A DNA stretch of 52,736 nt from assembly GCA_947505105.1 (NCBI GenBank), contig CANNKG010000013.1:1-52736 (forward strand), written 5' to 3'. The DNA is from Methylococcaceae bacterium. Lineage in GTDB: Bacteria > Pseudomonadota > Gammaproteobacteria > Methylococcales > Methylomonadaceae. The notes under the pieces are model-generated. The model ran no database searches, had not been told where the DNA came from, and saw nothing but the letters and a program-made list of their open reading frames with translations. The translations under genes and the position numbers were made by a program. This document shows positions 7,142 through 29,608 of the stretch, one piece after another. Position 1 is the first letter of the stretch. Each line of letters opens with the position of its first letter.

Positions 7142-9097
7142 ATGAAGTCAATTCAGTTACAACAAACCATGATGGCCATACTGTTTGGCCTGTCGACGTT
7201 GCCGGCCTCGGCGGTGGATGTCGCACAGAACGCTAGTAACATTGCCTTGTCGGGCACGACCGTCGCAGCCGAACCACAACTGGCGGGTGCTATTTTAGAA
7301 GATGATCTGATTCCATTTTCCTTCAAAGGCATTACCGGGACTTATCAGCAGCGAGTGGTGAGATCTTCGGTAGATAACACCATTGATTTTTATTGGCGCA
7401 TTACCAATGATAAAACTTCGACGGATACGCTCACTCAATTTCATTACCTGGAAAAAGAAGTGAACGATTATGGTGTTACTTATAACGTCGGTTGGCGCAC
7501 CGATGGAACAGCGGGTGAAGTTACTCCGGTTAAGGTGACGCGTTTTGCCAATAGTGCTTTGGCTCAAGGGGGCGCGAGATTTGATTTTTTTAAAAGTGAT
7601 AACGAAATTCTTGAAGGTGCCGGGATTAAGCCGGGTCAATCTACGCCGTTCTTTTTTATCGATACCAATAAAACCAATTATGAAAAAACTGCGCAATCTC
7701 AGGTTTCGAGAGTCTTTATAGGTTCGTCCGAGGTGAGCGCAGCCTTTAAAGTTACTAAGGAGGAAAATGCCAATAACAACACGCCACCGACGCCGACCGT
7801 ATTCGAGAATCAGGAGATCGTCTTTCAAGATAACCAGCTCGCCATTCCATGCGTGGAAGTTTACGACGCCAACGGCGGCAAAGTGCGCTATCAAGCAAAG
7901 CTGAACTATATTCCTACCAATGATAATACCTTTACCTTTGAATTAGCGGATGCCATGTTTGCCGACACTAAGGCTGAAAATTGCAATGCCTCCTATAAGG
8001 ACGGTAATCTGGACTTGCCGCTGGTCGATGTGGTTGACGGCAAGGGTGCCAAATTTAAATATCAAGCTTCAATGACACTGGCGCCAAGTGTAGGAAAATT
8101 GCGTTTTCAACTGAGAGGTGCGAATGCTGACCAAAGTCTGGATGATGGCTATAACATTGAACTAGGTCTATTTCATAGACTGGAAAACGTTCGCAACCGT
8201 AAGGATGTCGAAGTGGAAGACGGTCTTATTTTTAAAGGCAAAAGAGTGCAGCAATATTTTGGCTATTCCAGAAACGGTTCCTCCGATGGCCATAATCAAG
8301 AGTGGCTATTCCTGCCAGGTGACGTTGTGCCCGGTCCCAACGGAACGAAAAAGCATTTAGTGAGAATTTTAAACCGTGGCTTTATGAACTATCTGACGGT
8401 AAACAATCTAGGTCAGGTGGAATTATTACCGATTAATCCGAGTGGTCCAAATCTTGGCACATTGTGGGAAGTGGTTCCTGTCGTACCTTCGGTGAGCACT
8501 ATTCGATTGCGTTCGCAATTGACCGGCGGATTTTTACAGGTACCCGCTGATGACAACGACGGCTCAGCCTTAATCTTGGCAGAAAATAATAATTCTGCCG
8601 CGCAACAGTTCGTAAACATTCGATTTGCTTATCCTTTTGTGGAACGGCAACTGAAAAATACCAATATTACGTTACACCCTGCGCATAATGCCAATTTCGC
8701 CCTGGATGTCACGGCCTGCAGCACGGCGGAGAACACGCCCTTAGTCGTCTGGAGTAAGGGCACTAACAATAGCTGTCAACAGTTTGTACTAAAAGAGAAG
8801 TTTTTAAATGTTTATGCGATTCAGCCAATTATTGCATCTGACTTGCGTGTGCATCTGCTTGATCCAGGCAGTCGCCTCGCCGGATCCAATGTTGTGATTG
8901 GCTCGGCGGCTCAGCCAGATAATCTTTGGTTTATTTACAATGTGGTTCGTGAGCCTGGTAAATTCATAGTTGTTAACGGCAGAAGCGGTCTAGCGATGAG
9001 TGTTGCAAATACCTCCAGTACTCCTGGCGCTAATGTAGATCAAAATCTGTTCATGAATAATGAAAATCAAAAATGGACACTGCAGGCAATAAATTGA
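7142..9097 (+). CDS. Secreted protein with C-terminal ricin-type beta-trefoil repeats (paralogue 2)
   Basis: A 651-residue tandem copy of the preceding gene with the same order: signal peptide ending ASA (residues 22-24), unknown N-terminal domain, two LDIPCVEVY-type repeats, then beta-trefoil motifs (NQEW, LWEV, QQF, QQF, LWFI, NQKW). The first about 330 residues are nearly the same as in paralogue 1, including long shared runs of DNA. The C-terminal lectin-like half differs much more, including short insertions and deletions. It has its own RBS (CAGGAG) and a 148-bp spacer, so separate expression is possible. Tandem duplication followed by change of ligand specificity is the likeliest history. 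Function is unproven. Confidence 0.75.
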   Translation: MKSIQLQQTMMAILFGLSTLPASAVDVAQNASNIALSGTTVAAEPQLAGAILEDDLIPFSFKGITGTYQQRVVRSSVDNTIDFYWRITNDKTSTDTLTQFHYLEKEVNDYGVTYNVGWRTDGTAGEVTPVKVTRFANSALAQGGARFDFFKSDNEILEGAGIKPGQSTPFFFIDTNKTNYEKTAQSQVSRVFIGSSEVSAAFKVTKEENANNNTPPTPTVFENQEIVFQDNQLAIPCVEVYDANGGKVRYQAKLNYIPTNDNTFTFELADAMFADTKAENCNASYKDGNLDLPLVDVVDGKGAKFKYQASMTLAPSVGKLRFQLRGANADQSLDDGYNIELGLFHRLENVRNRKDVEVEDGLIFKGKRVQQYFGYSRNGSSDGHNQEWLFLPGDVVPGPNGTKKHLVRILNRGFMNYLTVNNLGQVELLPINPSGPNLGTLWEVVPVVPSVSTIRLRSQLTGGFLQVPADDNDGSALILAENNNSAAQQFVNIRFAYPFVERQLKNTNITLHPAHNANFALDVTACSTAENTPLVVWSKGTNNSCQQFVLKEKFLNVYAIQPIIASDLRVHLLDPGSRLAGSNVVIGSAAQPDNLWFIYNVVREPGKFIVVNGRSGLAMSVANTSSTPGANVDQNLFMNNENQKWTLQAIN

Positions 9098-9676
9098 TCT
9101 GAGTTAAGATTAAGAAAACTTATCTGTATCAGTCAGCGCTTACAGAATACGCTGTGAATAAGTCTTCTGTAAGCTTGATGGCTGCATTCATATGGTCGAC
9201 ACTGCTCCAGGCCTTGTCTGATAATTACTTAATTCGTCTTTTAGCTCAGCTATTAAGTCTGGCAATGCTGGGTGTTTTGCCTAACCAACATCCAGCCAAT
9301 TGGGATCTGTAGGGTAGAAATTGCCGAGCTTGCGCACAGTTTTTTGCAGGATAGTTTCCGAAGGGATTTTCTTGATGCTTGTAATATGAGCAATTTTATT
9401 AATAGAGCTCCCGGCACTATTGATTTGGAAAGCTTGTCAGTGAGTAATTCATCTATGTTTTGGTCAAAAACTGCTAAGCTTGCTGCTAATCAGGAGGGTC
9501 TTGCGCGTTGTAAGTTAGGCGGAGCGTTGCAACTTCTGATGATCATTTGAGTATTGGCATCGAGAGTCTTGGCATCAATTGTTGGTAATGTCGATTCAAC
9601 TTTGATTACGTAACTCAAAATTTGAATGTGAGGTGTGATGATTCACGCTGAGCGTCGTTTTACGAGGAATGAGCAA
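9098..9676. other. About 580-bp intergenic region with possible decayed sequence
   Basis: A 92-codon open frame at 9272-9550 has no signal peptide, family motif or ribosome binding site, and I do not support it as a gene. The part at 9308-9372 resembles the sequence just after hemF (IAELAHSFLQDS versus IADLGCNFLKGS if read as protein), so a decayed repeat may be present. The last bases carry the ribosome binding site of the next gene. Confidence 0.5.
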
Positions 9677-11269
9677 ATGTTTAAACATCTAATTAATTCA
9701 AAAATTACGCGAAGTTTTTTGTTATTGGCGGCGTTGGTTATTTTGAGCCAGAATGTCTTGGCCAGAAGTATTAGTCCGTTTCCGGACAAATTAGCAACGA
9801 TTTCTAATTTCCGTGGCCAAAATAATCTGGTTTTATATTTTTATATTACCGGTAATAGTACAGGTAGCCTATGGGGAACCGATATTTATACCGACGATTC
9901 AAGTGTTGCCAAGGCGGCAGTGCATGCAGGGCTTTTAGCGCCGGGGCAGTCGGGTGTAGTAAAAGTAACGGTGTTGCCGGGACAAAATAGTTATAACGGG
10001 ACAAGCGCCCATGGTGTGACCTCGACCCGTTATGACAAATTCGATGGAAGTTTTAAAATCGCAGCGGATGATGGCGGAGATAATAGCACGATACCTGCGC
10101 CGGCTGATTTAACAGAGTTTCGGGATCGTCCAGGTGAGGTCTACTTATTTTCATTGACGGCGAATAAAAACGGAGGTATCTGGGGAACCAATGTCTATAC
10201 CGCCGATTCGTCTCTTAAATCGGTGGCTGTTCATGCGGGGGTGTTGAGAGATGGTGAGTCCGGAGTTATCCGGGTTGTGACGGTTACGGGTCAGGGCAGC
10301 TATCTCGGCAGTGTTCAAAATGGTGTGAATTCCAACTCATATACAAAATATGCAGATAGTTATGCCGTTTCAAATGCTGGTGGGACGACCCCGTTATTAT
10401 TCTTGCCGGGGAGTCCGCAAAATCCTCTGCCAAATCCAGGCAATTTATCGAATTTCAAAGATCTTCTTGGCGGAGCCTATTACTTTACAGTGACGGGGAT
10501 TAATGCCGGGTCACTTTGGGGAACAGATTTTTATACTTCGGATTCACCGTTAGCGACTGCTGTTGTGCATGCGGGCGTGTTAGGCTTAAATCAGTCCGGG
10601 ACTGTCAAAGTGACGATCGGCGCTGGCAAATCAAGTTATGCCTCATCAACGCGTAACGGGATTACTTCCAGTGAATATGGGGCTTTCGCCTCTAGTTATT
10701 CCGTGGCAAGTGCTGATGGTAGTCTCGGTAGCATTCCGGTAATTAACAGTGCGGATACGGCCAATTATGTTGTGGGGCAGAGTTTCCGCTATCAGATTTC
10801 GGCGAGTAACAATCCCTTGGACTTTAACGCAACTGGCTTGCCAAAAGGGTTAAGCATTGATCGGAATAATGGCCTGATCACTGGGGCACCGAGCTTGACT
10901 GGACGCTTTTTAGTGGATTTACAGGTGGTGAATAAATCGGGCGCTAGTTCTAAAACGTTGATTTTAGATAGCGCCGGAACAACTACGCCGCCCGTGATTA
11001 ATCCGCCAAATCCTCCGACAAGTTCAACCAGCACCGAAGATTGTTTATTTGCTTGGGCGGAGTCGCACTTTCCGGTATTTTTTAATCCTGCTAATCAAAA
11101 GACCGAACAGGGCTTTGGTTATGTTTACCGGTTTTATTCGGGAACCAATACCTATTTGGGGATTTTTCAAGGGATCAGAATTGATTTGTTGCAGTTGAAC
11201 GGCTCAAGTTCTGCGATTCAGACCGTTGGAACTGTTCAAGACTTTAAGCTGTTTACGGGTTGTCAATAA
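9677..11269 (+). CDS. Secreted protein with three LCCL domains, a putative-Ig domain and a Cys-bounded C-terminal domain
   Basis: The 530-residue product has a signal peptide (ends NVLA). Three repeats at about residues 35-140, 148-245 and 262-355 each show the LCCL pattern WGT-x-x-YT-x-D-S, A-V-H-A-G, G-x-V-x-V and an NG/HGV-x-S-x-x-Y ending. The cysteines of animal LCCL domains are absent. A He_PIG-type Ig-like domain follows (about 360-430, LPKGLSIDRNNGLITGAP), then a Pro/Thr/Ser linker and a C-terminal domain from EDCLFAWAESHFP to FTGCQ that I have seen at the end of other proteobacterial exported proteins. ATG 9677, with GAGGA 8 bp upstream, is chosen over ATG 9635 because it gives a normal signal peptide. 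It extends the run of secreted binding-type proteins. Ligand unknown. Confidence 0.75.
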   Translation: MFKHLINSKITRSFLLLAALVILSQNVLARSISPFPDKLATISNFRGQNNLVLYFYITGNSTGSLWGTDIYTDDSSVAKAAVHAGLLAPGQSGVVKVTVLPGQNSYNGTSAHGVTSTRYDKFDGSFKIAADDGGDNSTIPAPADLTEFRDRPGEVYLFSLTANKNGGIWGTNVYTADSSLKSVAVHAGVLRDGESGVIRVVTVTGQGSYLGSVQNGVNSNSYTKYADSYAVSNAGGTTPLLFLPGSPQNPLPNPGNLSNFKDLLGGAYYFTVTGINAGSLWGTDFYTSDSPLATAVVHAGVLGLNQSGTVKVTIGAGKSSYASSTRNGITSSEYGAFASSYSVASADGSLGSIPVINSADTANYVVGQSFRYQISASNNPLDFNATGLPKGLSIDRNNGLITGAPSLTGRFLVDLQVVNKSGASSKTLILDSAGTTTPPVINPPNPPTSSTSTEDCLFAWAESHFPVFFNPANQKTEQGFGYVYRFYSGTNTYLGIFQGIRIDLLQLNGSSSAIQTVGTVQDFKLFTGCQ

Positions 11270-19025: not shown

Positions 19026-19997
19026 ATGCCAAATATTACCTTTAAACCTTTATTGATGGCGGTTAGTTTTGCTTTGTTGAGTGCAAACGTTTTTGCACAC
19101 TCAATTGAAACTAATAAAACAGTCTTACAAAAAAATGATCGCGCTACCGTAACTGTAAAATTTCAACCCCCCTTATCCGGTGATTTATATGTCGCAACGG
19201 TAATGGATGGAAAATTATATTTTGTTACCGAGCAGGGCACTAAGCTTACGACGGTTCCAACACCATTCCAAACCGGCACCTTCGATGGCCTGATAAAATT
19301 ATTGGATGTGGTGGCCTTAGGAATTAATCCTGGTAATTACCCGCTTTATGAAGTGGTAGTTGCGAAAGGTACCGATCCATTAAATTTTATGAACTGGATT
19401 GGCGGATTAGGAGGGTTAAAACAGCTCCATTTTAAGATTGGTTTATCTTCTTCTGCTAACAATGATAAGAATGGTGATGGCTTTTTAGATGATGATTCCG
19501 ATCATGACGGCCTGAGTGATAGTAGTTCAAGTAGCTGTGATGATAGCGTCAATGCTCGCAAAAAGGGTGATGACGATGACGATGATGATGATGATGATGA
19601 TCTGAATGATGATCATGGAACCGATAATCGTGTAACAACTACTAATACTAACAATACCAATTGTGGTTCCACTGCTACTAATAATAAAACTCCATCACAA
19701 ACAAGCACTAATCCTCCATCTACTGTAACCCCCGTAACCCCTGTTGCATCGACTGCATCTACTACCTCATCAGCAACCGATAATTCTGTCGGCAAAAAAT
19801 TATATGTCGACCTTACCTGTTCAGGGGGGGGGTGTCATAAGGCTGATCCTGCACAAAATCGAAATAAGATTTTGAAAGGCACTTCAGTGGCCGCAATTCG
19901 TCAGGCCATCAGAAATAATCCCGGTGATATGGGGGATTTAAATGGCAGTACTGATGCTCAATTGCAAGCAATTGCAGATTACTTGAAAACTTTTTGA
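19026..19997 (+). CDS. Secreted beta-domain protein with Asp-rich linker and C-terminal cytochrome c (CX4CH)
   Basis: The 323-residue product has a signal peptide (ends NVFA) and an N-terminal domain (about 25-135; GDLYVATVMDGKLYFVTEQG, GNYPLYEVVV, NFMNWIGGLGGLKQLHF). A linker holds a DxDxDG-type Ca2+-binding-like segment (NGDGFLDDDSDHDGLSD) and an 11-Asp run, then a Thr/Ser/Pro stretch. The end is a small single-heme cytochrome c with CSGGGCH (residues 265-271), an unusual CX4CH heme motif, and a likely Met axial ligand in GDMGDL. ATG 19026 is chosen over 18951 because it starts the signal peptide. The heme motif includes nine consecutive G bases. First of three related genes; likely periplasmic or surface electron carrier. 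Confidence 0.8.
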   Translation: MPNITFKPLLMAVSFALLSANVFAHSIETNKTVLQKNDRATVTVKFQPPLSGDLYVATVMDGKLYFVTEQGTKLTTVPTPFQTGTFDGLIKLLDVVALGINPGNYPLYEVVVAKGTDPLNFMNWIGGLGGLKQLHFKIGLSSSANNDKNGDGFLDDDSDHDGLSDSSSSSCDDSVNARKKGDDDDDDDDDDDLNDDHGTDNRVTTTNTNNTNCGSTATNNKTPSQTSTNPPSTVTPVTPVASTASTTSSATDNSVGKKLYVDLTCSGGGCHKADPAQNRNKILKGTSVAAIRQAIRNNPGDMGDLNGSTDAQLQAIADYLKTF

Positions 19998-19998
19998 T

Positions 19999-20023
19999 AA
20001 ATAATCGATGACTGATTATTTTT
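19999..20023 (+). terminator. Weak terminator or attenuator after the first cytochrome gene
   Basis: AAATAATC and GATTATTT pair as an 8-bp A/T-rich stem around 7 nt, followed by TT. It lies in the 56-bp gap before the next cytochrome gene, so it may lower rather than stop read-through. Confidence 0.45.
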
Positions 20024-20053
20024 GTATATAAAATCAAAAAAGGTAAAATAAAA

Positions 20054-20731
20054 ATGGTAAAAATAAACACAAAAACACTCGCCTTACTTTTAACTTTGAG
20101 CTGTGGAAGTTTTAGCGCTTTTGCGCAATTAAATGCACCTAAGTTGGATATCAATGTCACGAATGGCGATAAAGCGATTATTACGGCAAGTTTTCCGAGT
20201 GCCACAAAGGGTGATTTGTATTTTGCAGTGGATTTTGGCGGACAATATTTGTTTTTTACTGAGCAGGGCGGGATTTCAGGTAGCCCCGTACCTTTTATCG
20301 CAAATGGTAGTTTTTCCCAAGCGGTGACGGTATTAGACATGGCGGTCCCTGCAGCTTTGCAAGGAACCTATACTTTTTATCAAGTAGTTGCGAATGCAGG
20401 TTCCAATGTGTTCGATATCACCAATTGGAATGGTGGTTTAAGTCAAATAACCTTAACGGTAAGTGCGCCACCCGCTGTTGTTACCCCTGTTTCTAATGTA
20501 GCGCTTGGAAAGTCTTTATATAAAAGTTTGACGTGTTCAAGCAGTTCTTGTCATGGCATCAATCCTAAGCTTAATAAAGATAGGGTGTTGTCGGGAGATA
20601 CTGTTGTTTCCTTGCGATCAGCAATACGAAAGAATCCTACCGATATGGGTTTTTTGAGCACCACTAGCGATGCCGATTTACAGGCCATTGCTGATTATTT
20701 AAGTAGTTGTCGAACAGCCAGCAGTTGCTAG
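20054..20731 (+). CDS. Secreted beta-domain protein with C-terminal cytochrome c (CX4CH), paralogue 2
   Basis: A 225-residue relative of the preceding gene. The signal peptide ends SAFA. The N-terminal domain (about 25-140; GDLYFAVDFGGQYLFFTEQG, GTYTFYQVV, ITNWNGGLSQITL) joins almost directly to a cytochrome c domain. The heme motif is CSSSSCH (residues 161-167), again CX4CH, with the presumed Met ligand in TDMGFL and the closing helix DLQAIADYL. The Asp-rich linker of paralogue 1 is absent, so that linker is not needed for the pairing of the two domains. It probably acts in the periplasm. Partner unknown. Confidence 0.8.
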   Translation: MVKINTKTLALLLTLSCGSFSAFAQLNAPKLDINVTNGDKAIITASFPSATKGDLYFAVDFGGQYLFFTEQGGISGSPVPFIANGSFSQAVTVLDMAVPAALQGTYTFYQVVANAGSNVFDITNWNGGLSQITLTVSAPPAVVTPVSNVALGKSLYKSLTCSSSSCHGINPKLNKDRVLSGDTVVSLRSAIRKNPTDMGFLSTTSDADLQAIADYLSSCRTASSC

Positions 20732-20846
20732 CTATTTAGAAGGTTAATGAGTCGGGATATTGAAATTCGACTTTAATTTAATACATAAAGATGAGTATCG
20801 TTTGTATAATCGACATGTTTAATTTAAAGATGATTCCCAGGTTGAG

Positions 20847-21752
20847 ATGGTTATGTTGATGTTAAGAGCGTTTTTTACTTTGGTTTGTTTTTGTCTGATC
20901 GGAACATCCGCGTGGGCAGAACTGCGTGCAGATCGGACAGATGTGAATACAAGTACTGGAAAAGCTATTGTTTCGGTGGTCTTTCCTGCAGAGATCAAAG
21001 GGGATTTGTACTTGGCGTTTAACTTAAACGGACAGCTCTATTTTTATAACAATCTGGGAACGACCTCGACTAAAGTGACGCCGTTTATTCGAAATGCAAG
21101 TTTTAGTAAAACATTGCAAGTGCTGACCGTTTCGAGTGATGGGGTGCCTTCCGGTGTTTATCCACTTTATCAAGTGGTGACCATTCCTGATGGTGACCCG
21201 CTTAATTTTAGTAATTGGATTGGTGGATTGGGGGGATTAAGCACTCTAAATTTCAGAATCAATATTGTTGATAAGCCTACCGATTCAGTGGCTACGTCTG
21301 CTAGCCCTTCTCCACCTCAGGATCTAGTATCTTCATCCACTAGTGATTGTATTGTCTTAAAGATTCAGAGTCGAATCACCAAACTCATTATTGCTAGAGA
21401 TAAAATTGGTGGCGAGGATGGGAGCGATTCGGACGATGAATCCTACTCGAGTGATTGTAAAACTGTCGTTGGGACAGCGACAACACAGGATTCGAGTTCA
21501 TTGGTTGGCTCAACTACCAATGCCACCTTAGCAGCGCAACGTACTGCTCTCGGTAAAGATTTGTATCGAAAAGTTTGTGCCAGCTGTCATGGTTCTAACG
21601 CAAAAGCCGATCAAAATAATGTGATGAAAGGTCGAGATCCTCTAAAAATCCGGAGCGCTATTAGAAGTGACAAAGGTGGATTGATGGGGATTTTGAGAGA
21701 TGTCACCGACACCGATTTGCAAGTGATCGCTGAGTATTTAAAATCACTTTGA
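20847..21752 (+). CDS. Secreted beta-domain protein with C-terminal cytochrome c (CX2CH), paralogue 3
   Basis: A 301-residue third member. The signal peptide ends AWA. The N-terminal domain matches the other two (GDLYLAFNLNGQLYFYNNLG, GVYPLYQVV, NFSNWIGGLGGLSTLNF). A linker with an acidic patch (GGEDGSDSDDE) and two Cys leads to a cytochrome c with the ordinary heme motif CASCH (residues 244-248) and Met in GLMGIL. The normal heme motif here against CX4CH in its two neighbours suggests different redox or maturation properties. It is followed by the TlpA-like gene after 63 bp. Confidence 0.8.
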   Translation: MVMLMLRAFFTLVCFCLIGTSAWAELRADRTDVNTSTGKAIVSVVFPAEIKGDLYLAFNLNGQLYFYNNLGTTSTKVTPFIRNASFSKTLQVLTVSSDGVPSGVYPLYQVVTIPDGDPLNFSNWIGGLGGLSTLNFRINIVDKPTDSVATSASPSPPQDLVSSSTSDCIVLKIQSRITKLIIARDKIGGEDGSDSDDESYSSDCKTVVGTATTQDSSSLVGSTTNATLAAQRTALGKDLYRKVCASCHGSNAKADQNNVMKGRDPLKIRSAIRSDKGGLMGILRDVTDTDLQVIAEYLKSL

Positions 21753-21815
21753 TCCGACATGAGATTCCGATTTTAGTTGCACAATACGTCAGTTTTTTGA
21801 ATGGGAGAGTTTTGA

Positions 21816-22319
21816 ATGAAGTTAAAACAGTTGTCTTTGGGGCTTATGTTTCTGATGCTCATAGGGGGGGCGAGTGTTGAAGCGCTAGAGGTCGGGCAAA
21901 CCGTGCCTGCTTTTAGTTTGCCAACGTTGAAAGGTAATCAAGCCACAACTTTGCAACAATTTGCCGGCAAGGTGATTTATCTCGATTTTTGGGCTTCTTG
22001 GTGTGCACCTTGTCGCGTGTCATTTCCATTATTGAATAAATTACATCAGAAATTAAAAGCTCAGGGCTTTGAAGTGATTGCGATTAATCTGGATGAAGAT
22101 GCAAGTAAGGCGGAGCAATTCTTAAAGGACTATCCGGTCGAATTTACCGTGTTAAGAGATGCCGAAGGCGGATGGGCCGACAAGTTTGCGGTTGAATCCA
22201 TGCCGACTTCTTTCATTATTGATAAGCATGGCGTTGTTCAAAAAATCCATAGTGGTTTCAGCAGCGATGACGTAAAAGAGTTGGAAGCTAAAATTACCGA
22301 ATTATTGGCGCTTAAGTAG
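21816..22319 (+). CDS. TlpA-like periplasmic thioredoxin
   Basis: A 167-residue exported thioredoxin-fold protein of the TlpA/AhpC-TSA type. The signal peptide ends VEA, then VPAFSLPTLKG, the active site WASWCAPCR (about residues 62-70) and the cis-Pro region ESMPTSFIID. Such proteins reduce disulfides in the periplasm, often for cytochrome c or copper-site maturation, and are kept reduced by DsbD, which is encoded five genes on. Only 5 bp separate it from the DUF4266 gene, so the two are surely co-transcribed. RBS GGGAGAG precedes ATG 21816. Confidence 0.88.
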   Translation: MKLKQLSLGLMFLMLIGGASVEALEVGQTVPAFSLPTLKGNQATTLQQFAGKVIYLDFWASWCAPCRVSFPLLNKLHQKLKAQGFEVIAINLDEDASKAEQFLKDYPVEFTVLRDAEGGWADKFAVESMPTSFIIDKHGVVQKIHSGFSSDDVKELEAKITELLALK

Positions 22320-22324
22320 ACATC

Positions 22325-22546
22325 ATGATGATGAAGTTGTTGAGAATTTGCTGGATGCTCGGTTTAATGCTTGAAATAGTTGCCTGTACCGAGGTATTAC
22401 CAAGGCAGCGAGGCAATTTAGCGCTTCCTCAAATGGCGCTGACAACTGATGCTCTTGAGTTTGGTCTCAGACAACATACTTCGTTCAGTAAAGAAGCTGC
22501 CTCAGGCGGTTATGGCGGTGGCGGCGGCGGCTGCGGTTGTAATTAG
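22325..22546 (+). CDS. DUF4266 lipoprotein with Gly-rich Cys-Gly-Cys-Asn tail
   Basis: A 73-residue lipoprotein. A signal peptide and Cys at about residue 20 (EIVACTE) are followed by PRQRGNLALPQMAL and RQHTSFSKEAASGGYGGGGGGCGCN, the characteristic DUF4266 core and C-terminus. The function of the family is not known to me. The two C-terminal Cys invite a redox or metal role served by the TlpA-like protein just upstream. In many proteobacteria it travels with DUF3570 and ApbE, as here. Confidence 0.85.
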   Translation: MMMKLLRICWMLGLMLEIVACTEVLPRQRGNLALPQMALTTDALEFGLRQHTSFSKEAASGGYGGGGGGCGCN

Positions 22547-22602
22547 GCGTTCTGCGATTTATCAAGGATTATTATGCTTATTTTGAGGTACCGAGGTTGC
22601 GT

Positions 22603-23793
22603 GTGAAAAAACCTAAATCTCATGCGTTGGTCAGTCGTTTAACGTTGGCGGCACTCTCCTTGCCGGGAATGATGCAAGAGACTCAGGCTGGTCGTATTGA
22701 GGAAACCTATAACGGCGATTTTCAATATGGCCATTATTCAGAAAATAATCAACGGATGTCGGTGGATATTTTCGAAGGCGTTATTTCTACACCGATAGGT
22801 CGCTCGATGACCGCCTCCGTGAACTTGGTGCGGGATGTTATTTCCGGCGCTTCACCTAGATTCAATCAATCGGTAAAGGGACAGGTCAAGCAAATTTTAA
22901 GTGGCGCAAGTATCGTTGAACAGCGAGATGCGATTAGTTCCAATTTGACGTATTTTTTTGATACGGTCGCGGTGGGGCTTGGCGGTGGTTTTTCGCGCGA
23001 AAACGACTATACCTCACGTTACGCTAACACCAATGTCAGTCTTGATTTGAATAAAAAGCTGACCACGCTTAATTTTGGCGCCTCGGTAGCATTTGATGAA
23101 GTCGAGCCGACTCCAACCTCTTCTGGATCGATTCGGAACGATGATTGCGGTACAAAATGCAATAAAACCAGCCAGCAATATCTGCTGGGAGTTTCCCAGG
23201 TACTGGATAAAGATTCGGTGCTTCAAAGCAATATAACCTTTGGTTATCACCAGGGCTATCTTTCAGATCCTTATAAATTGGTGTATTCCAATGAAGACGG
23301 GCTTTTATTTGATACTCGCCCGCGAGAAAAATTTCAGTGGGCTTGGTTGACGCAATATGTGCGTCATTTTAAAGAACTTAATAGCGCTGCTTTGCATGCG
23401 GATTATCGATTTTATACCGATGATTGGGGGATTAATGCTCACACAGTCGAATTGAGTTGGCACCAACCGATTATGGCTGGCTGGCAGGTGATTCCTCGAT
23501 TTAGATATTATTCTCAGGATCGAGCGGATTTTTATCAGGCTGTTTTTGATAATGTCAGTCAGGTAAGTAGCTATTCCAGTGATTATCGCTTGGCGGGGTT
23601 TGGTACTATTTCGGGAGGCATCAAGTTCAGTAAGGAAATAACGCAGATCAAGACATTAAATCAGTTAAAGTTTCAAACGGGATTTGAATATTTTGATCGT
23701 AAGGCAAATTATCAATTGGGCGGAACAGGTAGTGGGAACTTCGATGACTTTAGTTATTTTTTAGTAACTGCTTCATTCAATCTAAAATTTTAA
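22603..23793 (+). CDS. DUF3570 protein, probable outer-membrane beta-barrel
   Basis: A 396-residue exported protein (signal peptide ends TQA) made of alternating amphipathic strands, ending in a terminal aromatic-containing strand (FSYFLVTASFNLKF), as in outer-membrane barrels. The DUF3570 features are RMSVDIFEGVISTPIGRSMTASVNLVRDVISGASPR near the start and LSWHQPI...RYYSQDRADFY towards the end. GTG 22603, with GAGG 6 bp upstream, is preferred over TTG 22597. It sits between DUF4266 and apbE, the usual order. A role in export or electron passage across the outer membrane is speculation. Confidence 0.82.
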   Translation: MKKPKSHALVSRLTLAALSLPGMMQETQAGRIEETYNGDFQYGHYSENNQRMSVDIFEGVISTPIGRSMTASVNLVRDVISGASPRFNQSVKGQVKQILSGASIVEQRDAISSNLTYFFDTVAVGLGGGFSRENDYTSRYANTNVSLDLNKKLTTLNFGASVAFDEVEPTPTSSGSIRNDDCGTKCNKTSQQYLLGVSQVLDKDSVLQSNITFGYHQGYLSDPYKLVYSNEDGLLFDTRPREKFQWAWLTQYVRHFKELNSAALHADYRFYTDDWGINAHTVELSWHQPIMAGWQVIPRFRYYSQDRADFYQAVFDNVSQVSSYSSDYRLAGFGTISGGIKFSKEITQIKTLNQLKFQTGFEYFDRKANYQLGGTGSGNFDDFSYFLVTASFNLKF

Positions 23794-23968
23794 AGATGTG
23801 AAATTGATACCTTGGGAATGTGGTTAAGTAATTTATGCATCTCGTATTCTTGTCCTTGTTTTTGATGGGGTAAGGCGGGTATGAAATACGTACACTAATA
23901 AGCGTTGAATTTGATGCATCTGTTGCAGGGATTCTCGTCGGATCAGCTTTTCAGTCAAGGGTGATTTT

Positions 23969-24871
23969 ATGTCGCTACAGGTTTTTTATTTCGAATTCAA
24001 AGCAATGGGCTCGCCTTGTCATTTGCAATTTTATGCGGCGTCAGTCGCACACTCCGAACAGGTTTTCGATTTAGTGACTCGACACATCGCTCTCCTGGAA
24101 AATCGATATTCTCGCTATTTGGATGATAGTTTAATCTCCGTGATTAACCGCCGTGCCGGCACAGGCGTTAAAACCTCGCTGGATCCTCAAACCTTTGCAC
24201 TGTTACAGTATGCTGATCAATGCTACCGTGAAAGTGGGCGATTATTTGATATCACTTCGGGTGTACTGCGAAAAATATGGAATTTTAAGCAAACTCGCGT
24301 ACCAAGCAAGGCCGAAATTAAAGAATTATTACCCTTGATTGGATGGCAAAAAGTGCAATGGAATTACCATTCTGTCTACTTGCCTGTTACGGGTATGGAG
24401 CTCGATTTTGGTGGCATTGTGAAAGAATATGCCGCTGATAGCGCGGCTGATTTATGTCGGCAACAAGGTATTTGTTCCGGTATCATTGAATTGGGTGGAG
24501 ATGTCTGCGTAATTGGTTCAATGCCGAATGGGCGAGGGTGGCCGGTTGCCATTCGCAATCCACGCGAGCCTGAGCAGAAACTTCTGGAATTTACGTTGCA
24601 ACGAGGTGGGTTGGCAAGTAGTGGTGATTATGAGCGTTATCAGTTAATTGATGGTGTGCGTTATAGCCATTTGTTAAACCCTAAGACGGGGTGGCCTGTG
24701 ACCGGGTTGCAGGCTGTAAGTGTGGTGGCGGGTCAGTGTATTGTCGCGGGTAGTTTGGCAACTATTGCTATGTTGAAAGCCCAATCTGGATTGAGGTGGC
24801 TGGAAAAGTTGCATGTCGATTATTTATGTTGCCAAAGTAATGGGCAGATTTTTAATAGTTTATCGGTTTAA
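23969..24871 (+). CDS. apbE: FAD:protein FMN transferase (ApbE family)
   Basis: ApbE enzymes attach FMN covalently to Thr or Ser of exported proteins. The 300 residues contain AMGSPCHLQFY, ENRYSRYLDDSLISVINR, FDITSGVLRKIWNF, LDFGGIVKEYAADSAA, GIIELGGDVCVIGSMPNGRGWPVAIR, GGLASSGDYERY and YSHLLNPKTGWPV, in the normal family order. No N-terminal signal peptide or lipobox is evident, unlike many ApbE proteins, so the location is uncertain. No obvious flavinylation target with the usual D-x-x-x-G/S-A-T motif was seen in the neighbours. The downstream dsbD starts 4 bp after the stop codon. Confidence 0.9.
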   Translation: MSLQVFYFEFKAMGSPCHLQFYAASVAHSEQVFDLVTRHIALLENRYSRYLDDSLISVINRRAGTGVKTSLDPQTFALLQYADQCYRESGRLFDITSGVLRKIWNFKQTRVPSKAEIKELLPLIGWQKVQWNYHSVYLPVTGMELDFGGIVKEYAADSAADLCRQQGICSGIIELGGDVCVIGSMPNGRGWPVAIRNPREPEQKLLEFTLQRGGLASSGDYERYQLIDGVRYSHLLNPKTGWPVTGLQAVSVVAGQCIVAGSLATIAMLKAQSGLRWLEKLHVDYLCCQSNGQIFNSLSV

Positions 24872-24875
24872 CAAC

Positions 24876-26807
24876 ATGAAAAATTTTAGTTTAATATGCC
24901 TCCTTTGTTTGATGAATATCAGCATTGCGATGGCGGCAACGCCTAAAGCCATCGTGAATGTCAATTCGTTAAATAATCAAGGGTGGCCTGCTCAGTACAA
25001 AATTACGTTGATAGTACCCAAAGATCATCATGCTTATCTGGATGATGGCGATGAACATATCTATCTACCGATCACGATTAACGCTAATTCGCAGTTGAGT
25101 GAGGTCGGGTTGGAGGTGTCAAAACTGGAAAAACCGGCAGGAATTTATGATAGCCATGTCAAGGCTAGAGTGTTGCGAGATCAAGGCGATTTTATCCTCG
25201 CCTTAAATCAGGCAGGAGAACAGGGAGCGACAATTCAAAATGTTATGTTTGATCTTAAATATCAGCTTTGCAATGAATTAACAAATGTCTGTTTTCGCCC
25301 ACAAGCGGCGCAATTCGAGTTGGCGCTTCCTCCATTGTTAAAAAGCGAGGCAACATCTTCTAAAGCCTTAGCCCCGGCTAATGCCGGATTAATGGATAGT
25401 CTGGTAGCGCTGTACAAGAATCATCAGGAAAATACTTTGTTGATTTTTGGCTTGATGTTTTTGGCCGGTTTATTATCGGTGGCAACGCCTTGTGTTTACC
25501 CTATGTTGCCGATTACCTCGATGTTTATTCTGAATCGTGCTCAGGGTAATGTAACAAAGGAACGGCAGCATGCCATGGTTTATTTGTTCGGGATGATCGG
25601 GACTTATATGGCGCTGGGTTTGCTTGCCGGTTTAACGGGAGGCGCCTTTAATGCCGTCATGCAGTCGGCTTGGGTGAATTTGGGGTTTGCGATCTTCTTT
25701 GCGTTTTTTGCGGTTTCATTATTAGGCTTCTATGAACTGGCTTTTATGCAAAATGAAGTGCATTCGCTCGATCAGCAATCGGCGCGAATTAAAGGGCTAA
25801 CGGGCACTTGGTTAATGGGTACGGTTGCTGGACTAGTTATTTCGCCGTGCGTTGGCCCCATCGTCTTTGCCCTGTTGTTACAGATTGCCGATAATATTGC
25901 GCTTAAAGCAGAATCGCTGGCATTAGTTAATCAGCATATCGGTTTTGGGGATAAATTGCTCATTTCCGCTCAAGGTAGTATTTTGATGGGCGGTTTTGGT
26001 TTGGGTGTTGGTATACCGTTTTTTCTGGTTAGCGTGGTCAAATTCAAGAAATTGCCAAAAGCCGGTTATTGGATGAATAAGATCAAATACGCGTTTGGCT
26101 TAGTGATTTTGTATTTTGCCTATACCTATCTGGCGAAAGGCTTTGGGATTTTGGGCTTGGATCCTGAGAGTATTTTAGCATTCGCCTTGGCAATAATTGT
26201 TGTATGGTTCGCAGTGGTGCAGTTTAATGTCTTGACGCCTTTGTCGGCAGAAGCTCAGCCGAATCAAAAAATGTATCATTTTTGTGGTGTGATTGCACTG
26301 ATCATCGGTGGATGGTTAATGGTTAACAGTTTAGGTAAGCTTCCGGCTTTTAGTCATATTAAAAATGCTAGCTTGGTTTCTTCGGCAACCGCTTGCGATG
26401 CAAAAGTCGCTAAATCCGATTCTTTAACGGAGCAAGAGGCCGGTATTTCCTGGTATAGAAATTTTGATGCTGCACAGCAAGCGGCCAAAGCAAGTGGCTT
26501 ACCCATTTTTATCGACTTTTATGCCAGTTGGTGCGCCAACTGTGTCGCATTTAAAGCCGAAACAGCAAATAATCAAGAGCTTAATCGAGCGCTGCGTGAG
26601 AAGGCGATTGCCGTCAAATTGATCGACCAGGAACCGGAATTTGAAAAATTTCGCAATAACCCACAACATCGCCAGCTAAAAATCGGTTTGCCTTATTTTG
26701 TAATTTTGACGTCTGATGGACAGTTTGCTTGGTCCGGAACCGATTATCAAGCGAGTCAAGCTATGATTGCTGAACTGAATCGATTAACGTCCGATACTCT
26801 AATTTAG
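24876..26807 (+). CDS. dsbD: Thiol:disulfide interchange protein DsbD
   Basis: DsbD carries electrons from cytosolic thioredoxin to periplasmic thiol proteins. The 643-residue protein has a signal peptide (ends AMA), an N-terminal periplasmic domain with its Cys pair in CNELTNVC, a multi-helix membrane core with the two Cys in SVATPCVYPMLP and VISPCVGPIVF, and a C-terminal thioredoxin domain with ASWCANCVAF. All three Cys pairs are present. ATG 24876 starts the signal peptide; an upstream ATG at 24813 would overlap apbE. It is the last gene of the redox cluster and can supply reductant to the TlpA-like protein and to heme-site maturation. Confidence 0.93.
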   Translation: MKNFSLICLLCLMNISIAMAATPKAIVNVNSLNNQGWPAQYKITLIVPKDHHAYLDDGDEHIYLPITINANSQLSEVGLEVSKLEKPAGIYDSHVKARVLRDQGDFILALNQAGEQGATIQNVMFDLKYQLCNELTNVCFRPQAAQFELALPPLLKSEATSSKALAPANAGLMDSLVALYKNHQENTLLIFGLMFLAGLLSVATPCVYPMLPITSMFILNRAQGNVTKERQHAMVYLFGMIGTYMALGLLAGLTGGAFNAVMQSAWVNLGFAIFFAFFAVSLLGFYELAFMQNEVHSLDQQSARIKGLTGTWLMGTVAGLVISPCVGPIVFALLLQIADNIALKAESLALVNQHIGFGDKLLISAQGSILMGGFGLGVGIPFFLVSVVKFKKLPKAGYWMNKIKYAFGLVILYFAYTYLAKGFGILGLDPESILAFALAIIVVWFAVVQFNVLTPLSAEAQPNQKMYHFCGVIALIIGGWLMVNSLGKLPAFSHIKNASLVSSATACDAKVAKSDSLTEQEAGISWYRNFDAAQQAAKASGLPIFIDFYASWCANCVAFKAETANNQELNRALREKAIAVKLIDQEPEFEKFRNNPQHRQLKIGLPYFVILTSDGQFAWSGTDYQASQAMIAELNRLTSDTLI

Positions 26808-27098: not shown

Positions 27099-28850
27099 AT
27101 GCATAAAAAAGTTCTCACCTTTATCGGTAGTAGTTTACTATTGATGTCCCCTTTAACCAGGGCGGCTGTTGATTTGCCTGCATCAGCAAAAATTCCAATG
27201 GGGCAGGTTGAAGAAGTTTGTGTCGACTTTAATCCTGCTTCTTGGCGCGACGCCCAGGAAATCGACGGGGTAAAAATTCAGGAATCACGTTTGTGTGAGC
27301 CGGATAACCCATTCGAAGTCGCCGCGTTCGTAAAAGGCACCAATAACATCTCGATGGAAACCTTGATGAAAACTGGTTTAGCGGCTGATGCTGTGACCAT
27401 GTCTGATGATGTCGATAATGATGGTGACCCTGATCATATTATTATCAAGCTTGAAATTGCCGAACTGAATGGCCATTCTCCGGATGTTAAAGACCCGATT
27501 ACCACATACGATATCGCACCGGGAATTCAACCGACTTTTTGGGTATATACGCCAAAGACCCGCGATATGTCTACTGTCAATCTATATGATTTGCGTGCCA
27601 ATCCGTTGTTACGTTTGCCTTCTCCGACAATTCGGGTTGAGCAAAATGACGTTGTCTGGTTAGTGCTTGAAAATACCCATTATTTGCCGCACTCCATTCA
27701 TTTGCATGGCGTTGACCATCCTTATATGGATCATGGCGGTGAAGGTAACGATGGTGTTGGTCAAACCAGTAATATGGATACCATGCCCGGCGATAGCAAA
27801 ACTTATGTGATCAAGCCACGGCAGCCTGGCACGATGTATTATCACTGTCATGTCCAGCCACATGTTCACATTCCAATGGGTTTGCAGGCGATGTTCATTG
27901 TCGAGGAAAATCGTCCGAACAACTGGCCGCAAACCTTGAACGTTGGGGCGGGTCAAGTACGCCATCCATCAGCAGCGGTACTTGAGAAATACGCCAGAGA
28001 ATATGACATGCATTATCAGTCAGCAGATAAAGAATTGCATGAAAATGTCGCCAGATCGGCGAATGATCCACGGCTTTTAGCGAAGCATTTGAATATGGAT
28101 TATGACATCACGGATGCGACTGATGATTATTACATGTTGAATGGTAAGTCATTCCCTTATACCTTAAGAGAATCGCTGATTCATATGGATAAGGAAGAAA
28201 AAGTTAAGTTGCGCGTTCTGAATGGACATACCGATATGTTTGCGATGCATATTCATGGACATAAACCAACGGTCACCCATTACGATGGGGTGGATAATGG
28301 CCCTGGATCTTATATTCAGCGCGACGTGCATGGTTTAACACCTGCTCAGCGTTTGGATTTGGAACTAAGTGGACAGGATGATGGTCTACATAGCTTCGGA
28401 GAGGGTATCTGGATGTTTCACGATCACGTTGAAAAATCCTTTACTACGAACGGTTTGGGTGAGGGTGGTGATATCAGCTTAGTCGTTTATAAAAACTATG
28501 TCGATGAACGTGGAATTCCTAAAGCCCACGGAATGAGTCTGGCGCCCTACTTTACCAAAGAATTTTGGCAAAAGAATTACCCGCTTTGGCAGGATTACGA
28601 CACTTGGCGTAGTTTAGGCTTACCTGAACTTAAAGGTGATCCTAAAGCAAAATCGGTAACCAAAACTCAGGCAACTGCAGTTGCGGTAAAGACGCCGGTT
28701 GCACCTGCTGCTGCGAATAATACTCAAAGTTCGGGTGGCTTGGGGCAACTCGTGTATGGGTTGATTTTTGGTGTTGCCGGTTATTTCTTGTTTGGCAAGT
28801 TATACACGATTTATCAGGCACGTCGTAAAACTCCGGATCAAGTGGCATAA
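27099..28850 (+). CDS. Periplasmic multicopper oxidase with C-terminal membrane anchor
   Basis: The 583-residue protein has a signal peptide (ends TRA). Copper motifs are HSIHLHG (about 197), YYHCHVQPHVHIPMG (about 247, a type 1 site with Cys, His and Met), MFAMHIHGHKP (about 382) and WMFHDHVEK (about 438). The type 1 ligands fall in the first cupredoxin domain, as in some two-domain oxidases and copper nitrite reductases. After a Pro/Ala-rich linker a single hydrophobic helix (LVYGLIFGVAGYFLF) and a basic tail anchor the protein in the membrane. A DNDGDPDH segment may bind Ca2+. The substrate is unknown. It stands alone 291 bp after dsbD. Confidence 0.85.
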   Translation: MHKKVLTFIGSSLLLMSPLTRAAVDLPASAKIPMGQVEEVCVDFNPASWRDAQEIDGVKIQESRLCEPDNPFEVAAFVKGTNNISMETLMKTGLAADAVTMSDDVDNDGDPDHIIIKLEIAELNGHSPDVKDPITTYDIAPGIQPTFWVYTPKTRDMSTVNLYDLRANPLLRLPSPTIRVEQNDVVWLVLENTHYLPHSIHLHGVDHPYMDHGGEGNDGVGQTSNMDTMPGDSKTYVIKPRQPGTMYYHCHVQPHVHIPMGLQAMFIVEENRPNNWPQTLNVGAGQVRHPSAAVLEKYAREYDMHYQSADKELHENVARSANDPRLLAKHLNMDYDITDATDDYYMLNGKSFPYTLRESLIHMDKEEKVKLRVLNGHTDMFAMHIHGHKPTVTHYDGVDNGPGSYIQRDVHGLTPAQRLDLELSGQDDGLHSFGEGIWMFHDHVEKSFTTNGLGEGGDISLVVYKNYVDERGIPKAHGMSLAPYFTKEFWQKNYPLWQDYDTWRSLGLPELKGDPKAKSVTKTQATAVAVKTPVAPAAANNTQSSGGLGQLVYGLIFGVAGYFLFGKLYTIYQARRKTPDQVA

Positions 28851-29029
28851 CGGTCACTGGTACTTTTGTTTAAGTTGGACCTGTATTTAAAGTTCATTAA
28901 GCTGTTGGCGGCTAGTTTTATTGAGGCGTGCAATGCTGTTGAGAGATATAGGTTCTATTTGGACAAAATTTATAATAAATTGAGTGTTTAGGCGCTCTAC
29001 TAACAACTATCCAAGATGGGGATTTATAG

Positions 29030-29608
29030 ATGTCTACAGTTTTAAATGAAGTATTGATTGCTAATAGAGATTATGCCGCGAGTTTTGATAAAGGCGATTT
29101 ACCTATGCCTCCGGGGCGTCGTTTTGCGATTTTAACCTGTATGGATGCGCGACTTGATCCTGCTAAATATGCGGGACTCAGCGAAGGTGATGCGCATGTC
29201 ATTCGTAACGCAGGCGGTCGAGCGAGTGATGACGCGATTCGTTCGCTGGTTATTTCTTATAAGTTGCTCGGAACGCGTGAGTGGTTTGTAGTGCATCATA
29301 CCGATTGCGGTATGGAAACTTTTAGTGATGAAATTATGCGCGGTTTACTGGCGAGCAGTCTTGAAACCGCAACGGTCGATGCGAGCGGTTGGCATGACGT
29401 TGGTGCTGGTCCTGGTTCTACTGAAGCGAATCATATTTCATGGTTGACGATTAAAAATCAGGCAGAGAGTGTGGCTGAGGACGTTACTCGGATTAAAAAT
29501 CATCCGCTGGTCCCTGGAAATATTCCGGTCTATGGTTACATCTATGACGTTAAAAGTGGACGATTGATCGAAGTGCCTGAAGCGACAAAAATTGGCGCTG
29601 CTCAATGA
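29030..29608 (+). CDS. Beta-class carbonic anhydrase
   Basis: The 192-residue cytosolic enzyme interconverts CO2 and bicarbonate. It has the zinc and proton-relay motifs [26 protein letters not shown] and VVHHTDCGM (Cys, Asp, His and Cys ligands) of the beta class, of the subgroup with a long insert after the second zinc site (about 110-150). TGGGGA lies before ATG 29030. CO2 handling fits a methylotroph or autotroph, but the enzyme is widespread. Two hairpins after it mark the end of its transcript. Confidence 0.92.

Follow-up and report, generated by a model that had tools for sequence, protein, structure and literature searches.

A DsbD-type flavinylation locus with secreted heme-motif partners in Methylococcales

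Background

The DsbD-type flavinylation system was described by Meheust et al. 2021 (PMC8238504, eLife), who report 285 flavinylation clusters with DsbD and counts of 227 for DUF3570, 221 for DUF4266 and 183 for thioredoxin-like proteins. ApbE is typical of these clusters. A DUF3570 protein of Chlorobium is flavinylated with flavin mononucleotide (FMN) at two [S/T]GA[S/T] motifs, and the function of DUF3570-based transfer is called uncertain in the same paper. Here we analyse a locus with this core, located at positions 19026-26807 of a 52,736-nucleotide stretch of DNA from a Methylococcaceae bacterium (GCA_947505105.1, contig CANNKG010000013.1), referred to below as the window. An initial annotation of the sequence had taken the locus for an undescribed module. 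This cannot be upheld for the core, as ApbE (PF02424), a DUF3570 protein (PF12094) with [S/T]GA[S/T] motifs, a DUF4266 protein with a CXC motif, a thioredoxin-like protein and DsbD (PF02683) are all present, and this combination is already found in Meheust et al. Unlike the DsbD-type system, whose DsbD passage in PMC8238504 names no cytochrome, the DUF3570 genes considered here frequently have, in one clade, a secreted partner with a heme motif. The frequent pairing of the flavin module with a heme partner seems to be unreported. A literature search for DUF3570 or DUF4266 across 5.39 million papers found nothing beyond PMC8238504, and a search for flavinylation in methanotrophs yielded nothing on the subject, judged by titles.

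The three heme proteins of the window are compared with PgcA of Geobacter sulfurreducens, an extracellular cytochrome with hemes tethered by flexible linkers, in which domain III binds and reduces mineral and domains I and II do not (PMC11520253). Like PgcA, they are secreted and have a class-I-like monoheme domain with a histidine and a conserved methionine. Some of their relatives carry this domain on Pro/Thr-rich linkers. Unlike in PgcA, which has three hemes in a single chain, the hemes would be spread over three chains with one each; there is also an N-terminal domain that is probably of beta type, and CX4CH stands in two cases of three. The core is a member of the DsbD-type flavinylation system and the locus is its variant with a heme partner, not a PgcA; at its outer end it would work like a tethered-cytochrome system.

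Heme-motif partners of the DsbD-linked DUF3570 clade

The profile of the short-type DUF3570 was searched against 301 genomes of the order and 321 genomes of the class, both being samples. All 51 places scoring at least 430 bits were considered as the clade set (L138 and L226 are one place, counted as L226). Fragments of about 225-325 bits (e.g. G291:C40, G129:C85, G278:C186) stand outside the 51, and some may belong to the clade. The short controls are 15 full-length places of 294-372 bits, with the near-full-length G138, G097, G134 and G124 (257-285 bits) left out. The long controls are 46 long-type DUF3570 genes. They lie on 39 of the 43 stretches that were retrieved, and some genomes contributed several of them. 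A gene was scored as a partner if it is small, encodes a secreted product and has a single heme motif, either CXXCH or CX4CH; the signal test was crude.

DsbD occurs within 5.5 kb in all 51 clade loci and in none of the 15 short loci outside the clade. A heme partner was found within the same distance in 40 of the 51 clade loci, compared to 0/15 short and 1/46 long controls, the latter having shorter flanks (5.5 kb on both sides in 4 of the 46, 3 kb in 29). Where both flanks reach 3 kb, a partner lies within that distance in 23/26 clade loci, 0/10 short and 0/29 long controls. The sole partner among the long controls, in L100, is a CX4CH match; with a slightly different rule, where CX4CH is counted only for clade proteins labelled with the N-terminal domain described below, the counts are 40/51, 0/15 and 0/46. 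The 11 misses comprise two cytochromes cut at a contig edge, one heme gene of the cargo type that fails the signal test, six cuts by contig ends and two loci with no partner. After inspection, 43 of the 51 clade loci have a partner, and six of the other eight are cut by contig ends.

In the tree the 51 DsbD-linked DUF3570 proteins form one clade with support 100/99. They come from 12 genera of one family, and a partner was found in at least one locus of 11 genera, that is, all but g8. In the genus of the window (g1) and in g20 the partners are the cytochromes with the N-terminal domain, and in the nine other genera a different small protein with one heme motif is encoded near the set. The observed builds are N-terminal domain, linker and heme domain; a short heme stretch followed by an immunoglobulin-like (Ig-like) region; a short heme stretch followed by a domain ending in QNQ; and some rarer builds, including one whose middle part looks cyclophilin-like by eye. 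Thus the heme motif stays while the remainder of the partner changes between genera. The partner in L186 has four to five PgcA-like heme domains per chain. The partners across genera, together with the single supported clade, rule out a purely genus-local association.

The tree was midpoint-rooted. As drawn, G008 branches off first, followed by g20 with the window genus and then by the genera with other partners. Since the genera with the N-terminal domain branch before the latter, it is perhaps the older partner and was replaced later, with the provision that the G008 row was flagged as a long branch and its place is unsure. Outside the order, the DUF3570-DUF4266-TlpA sets of L229 and L230 adjoin a protein containing two CXXCH motifs and one that looks Tat (twin-arginine translocation)-exported by eye, which further connects the set with heme proteins.

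Structure and distribution of the NDOM-cytochromes

The N-terminal domain common to the three secreted cytochromes was named NDOM. The eight genes, the flavinylation motifs and the multicopper oxidase gene of the window are all on the + strand. NDOM-cytochrome A (19026..19997, 323 aa) consists of a signal peptide, the N-domain, an Asp-rich linker of about 130 aa and a class-I-like heme domain with the CX4CH motif CSGGGCH at 19818-19838. In NDOM-cytochrome B (20054..20731, 225 aa) the linker is almost absent, and the CX4CH motif is CSSSSCH at 20534-20554. NDOM-cytochrome C (20847..21752, 301 aa) has a canonical CXXCH, CASCH at 21576-21590, and matches Cytochrome_CBB3 (2.4e-7). The initial annotation spoke of three cytochrome c fusions sharing a repeated domain. 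There are indeed three heme-motif proteins, and the threefold repeat is real, the second and third domains being 30% and 43% identical to the first; on the other hand, two of the three contain CX4CH instead of CXXCH. CX4CH occurs in tetraheme cytochromes c3. Papers listed in a literature search for the motif include genome studies of iron oxidisers and work on multiheme cytochromes, and none with CX4CH was among the first 15 of 125 matches in another search.

The alignment of the three domains has 24 invariant columns, and its sequence suggests that NDOM is likely beta-rich. The AlphaFold2 (AF2) model of cytochrome C alone was not usable, with a predicted local distance difference test score (pLDDT) of 37; the NDOM profile found no relative among the solved structures of the PDB. 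The heme domains align as minimal class I cytochromes with the conserved Met in M-G-x-L, and H and M are invariant in 11 aligned domains. Compared to CXXCH, CX4CH is a two-residue insertion in the heme loop of the alignment. Among 45 distinct NDOM proteins of the fetched loci, 17 contain CX4CH, 10 contain CXXCH and 18 neither, some of these being truncated by contig ends. Pro and Thr make up 47-63% in 5 of the 23 linkers measured; the linkers of the window are Asp-rich, Ser/Thr-rich or nearly absent. The solved structures nearest to the heme domain (6.4e-14) are 8qj6 and 8qjg, domains I and II of PgcA (PMC11520253), and by this similarity it is distantly akin to PgcA.

NDOM profile matches were found in 26 of the 301 genomes of the order (7 of 50 genera) and in 5 of 61 genomes of the family. 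The link of the cytochromes to the DUF4266/DUF3570 set, suggested by the initial annotation, was borne out by the neighbourhood search across Methylococcales: cytochromes of the same kind are located directly upstream of TlpA in two genera. An NDOM-type cytochrome precedes TlpA-DUF4266-DUF3570 in the window and G007:C229 (g1) and in G140, G154 and G238 (g20). The genes of G007:C229 and G238 are cut by the contig end, and what is visible is the linker and heme domain, or the heme domain, with NDOM unseen. In G034 five tandem NDOM-cytochromes precede a TlpA gene that lies at the end of its contig, and a DUF3570 begins another contig. Cytochromes lying apart from the set in related genomes had been named as grounds against the link. 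This is partly so: G008 (g8) has both single NDOM-cytochrome genes and the module, unlinked, whereas they are linked in the two genera above. No DUF3570 match at 1e-20 was obtained in three genomes that encode NDOM proteins with CX4CH, namely G058, G213 and G258. In G071 and G079 (family f6) and in G007:C45, NDOM-cytochromes lie beside multiheme cytochromes, some clusters having MtrC-like domains. The NDOM proteins seen in family f4 carry the domain with no heme motif.

Flavin and thiol components

The DUF3570 gene of the window (22603..23793, most likely starting with GTG at 22603; 6.2e-100) encodes a predicted outer-membrane barrel of the short type with a C-terminal Phe. Its two SGAS flavinylation motifs are at 22843..22854 (residues 81-84) and 22900..22911 (residues 100-103). 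Covalent flavinylation is predicted from the motif, as shown for the Chlorobium homologue. At least one [S/T]GA[S/T] motif is present in 49 of the 51 clade loci and two in 32. The AF2 model built from 12 sequences is a barrel with pLDDT 71 and, by our own count, 16 long strands, in which both SGAS sites lie on the side away from the termini. Such barrels usually have both termini in the periplasm. If so here, the SGAS loop would face outward, and the flavin loop is thus predicted from the model to be on the outward side of an outer-membrane barrel. No relative of DUF3570 was found in the PDB by sequence. Among the 50 Foldseek matches listed are generic barrels (FadL, OmpG, TonB receptors) with template modelling scores below 0.5 to the query, and therefore we claim an outer-membrane barrel and nothing narrower.

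The DUF4266 lipoprotein (22325..22546; 1.2e-19) has a lipobox IVAC (by eye) and the C-terminal CXC sequence GGGGGGCGCN, with the tail GCGCN. In a script test, the terminal CXC was present in 44 of 46 DUF4266 open reading frames (ORFs) of DsbD-clade loci. The small TlpA/ResA-like thioredoxin (21816..22319) has a signal peptide and WCAPC. It is of the Redoxin/AhpC-TSA type (Redoxin 5.2e-30), and the PF13899 domain sits on DsbD. DsbD (24876..26807, 643 aa, most likely starting with ATG at 24876; DsbD_TM 1.2e-38) has an N-terminal CNELTNVC, the transmembrane motifs TPCVYP and SPCVGP, and a C-terminal thioredoxin domain with CANC. The same genome encodes a separate, better-scoring DsbD_TM protein (G000:C80), so the DsbD of the window fits a dedicated copy. 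All redox sites of the window are kept: SGAS twice, the CXC tail, WCAPC and every DsbD cysteine.

The ApbE flavin transferase (23969..24871; 3.5e-73) has MGSPC from residue 13 of the longest frame starting with ATG, GTG or TTG and thus no room for a signal peptide. Unlike what would be expected of an exported ApbE in a DsbD-type system, the ApbE proteins called here have no signal peptide. This does not exclude them from cluster membership, as PMC8238504 requires of at least one target gene that it encode a signal peptide or a lipid site. ApbE was called in 24 rows (23 places). Of these, 15 rows come from the clade, where one place appears in two rows, and the short controls account for the remaining 9. 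An ApbE fragment with two internal stop codons was observed at G000:C15:40402-40752.

All eight genes were found at 19026-26807, co-directional as initially annotated. The gaps are mostly short, also as annotated: 5 bp between TlpA and DUF4266, 4 bp between ApbE and DsbD, and 56-175 bp in the remaining five. Promoter-like patterns number 21 against 20.2 expected from shuffles, and terminator-like patterns 11 against 8.8. Since this is near the shuffle level, co-transcription is unproven.

Long-type modules

The same genome contains a second module in G000:C39 (L068:1040-5936), with a 151-aa secreted cargo protein, TlpA, DUF4266, a long DUF3570 with an extra C-terminal part, and ApbE. Its surroundings yielded neither a DsbD match nor a gene for a single-heme protein. 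At many long-type modules, that of G000:C39 included, a small heme-less secreted protein is encoded next to the set. Its domain can be aligned to the one at the C-terminus of the QNQ-type heme partners. A cysteine pair is present in 15/15 heme-less and 9/9 heme-bearing proteins. Two inner histidines are present in 13/15 and 14/15 heme-less proteins, compared to 0/9 heme-bearing ones. The 15 proteins (from L071, L080, L082, L087, L090, L091, L094, L098, L102, L106, L108 and L068) were selected for an Ala-His pair near the start and trimmed there, so that the histidine at the mature N-terminus is present by construction, whereas the inner histidine columns are not. The loss of the histidines in heme-fused relatives would agree with heme having taken the place of a metal site, which we regard as a lead from the alignment.

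In G018 (L069-L075) there are twelve DUF4266 matches in one genome, several of them beside tandem long DUF3570 genes. At L056:14995-17521 (G034:C214), a protein with a heavy-metal-associated domain and a P-type ATPase, identified by look, lie downstream of a long DUF3570-ApbE pair; this set is a possible hint at a copper link.

Proposed mechanism

The arrangement suggests a relay that carries reducing power out of the cytoplasm to the outer cell surface via DsbD, TlpA, DUF4266, FMN-bearing DUF3570 and a secreted monoheme protein, to which we give an even chance. Cytoplasmic thioredoxin would reduce DsbD, which would pass the reduction to the TlpA-like protein. The latter would reduce the FMN attached by ApbE to DUF3570, the barrel with an outward flavin loop, either directly or via the CXC tail of the DUF4266 outer-membrane lipoprotein. 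FMN would accept two thiol electrons and hand single electrons to the heme of the secreted protein, an acceptor that a flexible linker often carries. In the window this role would fall to the three NDOM-cytochromes, and elsewhere to other proteins with one heme motif. Finally, the heme protein would reduce a target at the cell surface. Iron or copper is the most likely one, and the reduction would serve assimilation or redox upkeep. Gene content, motifs, linkage across the clade and the distant kinship of the heme domain to PgcA are observed; the order of the electron steps, the attachment of heme, the whereabouts of the cytochromes and the substrate are predicted from them. We infer surface electron transfer, and favour a thioredoxin-driven surface reductase for metals. 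Like the CorA/MopE proteins (PMC3912023), this would be surface copper handling in a methanotroph; unlike there, no CorA match was found among the eight genes. A CorA-like protein (PF18252, 5e-6, 26.7 bits at a cut-off of 27) adjoins an NDOM-cytochrome in G007:C45 (L059, 1-20000), in the surroundings of a multiheme cytochrome cluster with one protein containing 18 CXXCH motifs.

Several observations weigh against the relay, which is predicted from gene content, motifs and models. The 51 loci are not independent, as all come from one family. Two genomes with wide flanks, G008 and G257, have the module with no heme gene nearby. The module of G582, a genome outside the order, comprises a close DUF3570, TlpA, DUF4266, ApbE and DsbD (the latter by a thioredoxin match), and the nearest heme motif is about 8 kb away. 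The short CXXCH stretches of most partner genera have no obvious sixth ligand, and that they hold heme is unproven. The heme domain of the window matches domains I and II of PgcA, which, unlike domain III, did not bind iron oxide. As for the flavin, 2 of the 51 clade DUF3570 proteins contain no [S/T]GA[S/T] and 19 contain fewer than two; in the AF2 model residues 88-102 of the flavin loop have pLDDT below 50, and no path through the barrel is visible. The contact between DUF4266 and DUF3570 is a candidate step only. ApbE lies beside the module in 14 of the 51 clade loci, and the other loci would depend for their flavin on an ApbE gene located elsewhere; ApbE does not have to be a genomic neighbour of its substrate. 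In all 24 ApbE rows the MG motif is 11-22 residues from the longest possible start (ATG, GTG or TTG), leaving no room for a signal peptide. Flavin attachment would thus probably precede export, or be the work of another ApbE, e.g. the one in G000:C118.

Alternative explanations

The cytochromes could be the terminal carriers of a respiratory chain that delivers electrons to minerals or electrodes, and the flavin barrel would then serve as its outer-membrane conduit. The PgcA-like heme domain agrees with this, as do the NDOM-cytochromes that adjoin multiheme, sometimes MtrC-like, clusters in G071, G079 and G007, and a bioanode Methylobacter reported with a porin-cytochrome conduit (PMC13322032). 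As in such conduits (MtrCAB, Pcc), electrons would cross the outer membrane via a barrel. However, unlike in the conduits, no multiheme protein is encoded by the eight genes and the barrel cofactor is predicted to be a covalent flavin; the matched PgcA domains differ from the mineral-binding one. Moreover, entry through thioredoxin and DsbD conserves no energy. Assimilation or redox upkeep is therefore favoured over respiration, which we consider improbable here. Dedicated maturation or repair also appears improbable. In this case TlpA and DsbD would keep the cytochrome cysteines reduced and DUF3570 and DUF4266 would aid export or folding. Like in the ResA/CcmG-DsbD pathway, a thioredoxin-like protein fed by DsbD adjoins c-type cytochromes; heme-motif partners lie beside DsbD, this clade has a DsbD copy of its own, and TlpA resembles ResA. 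On the other hand, its scores are below the curated cut-offs, with 114.3 bits against 170 for ResA (5.4e-33) and 75.4 against 123.15 for DsbE, and the maturation pathway has no flavin barrel or CXC lipoprotein. Most partners have an ordinary CXXCH, long-type modules have TlpA and DUF4266 mostly with no heme-motif gene nearby, and the flavin sites would be left unexplained. No Ccm families were found among 20 window proteins scanned with Pfam.

A single module type with changing partners would also be expected if DUF3570 were a pore that secretes or anchors the neighbouring beta-domain protein, the redox parts loosening its disulfides and the heme being incidental. Such a role is consistent with the secreted partners found next to long-type modules, which lack heme and share a conserved cysteine pair. 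It is likewise improbable, as the flavinylation motif is kept in 49/51 loci and the heme motif persists when the rest of the partner changes. Finally, the cytochrome tandem and the known flavinylation operon could be neighbours by chance, as might be suspected from G008, where they are unlinked, and from NDOM-cytochromes occurring elsewhere with no module. However, the linkage holds in two genera with NDOM partners and in 11/12 genera with some heme-motif partner, and in view of the 0/15 short and 1/46 long control loci we reject this explanation as very improbable.

A further possibility, which we regard as unlikely on present grounds, is that the relay belongs to a distinct class of outer-membrane electron conduit, driven by thioredoxin through DsbD, whose barrel has covalent flavins on its outward side where other conduits enclose a multiheme protein, with interchangeable one-heme partners and flavin loading in the cytoplasm before export, the long modules perhaps having a histidine-bound metal in the partner where heme would otherwise be. 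If this is true, one type of flavin barrel would serve heme or metal partners. The frequent heme-motif partner in one clade provides a defined electron acceptor for testing, and the step between two-electron thiols and one-electron heme would be a chemical reason for the flavin. The locus bears on metal handling and low-oxygen survival in methanotrophs and on the question whether multiheme wires are indispensable for electron passage through the outer membrane.

Other genes in the window

A multicopper oxidase gene (27099..28850) begins 291 bp downstream of the module. It is CopA-like, scoring under the cut-off of the CopA model, and is probably a separate unit. A link to the module was considered and set aside, as a similarly labelled ORF lies beside just one other module (L187, upstream of TlpA). 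The encoded protein has a C-terminal membrane-like stretch (by eye), and a carbonic anhydrase-like gene follows, the pair occupying 27099-29608. Two further genes lie side by side at 7142-9097 and 9635-11269; the product of one contains a ricin-type lectin domain, and that of the other combines three LCCL stretches with an Ig-like domain.

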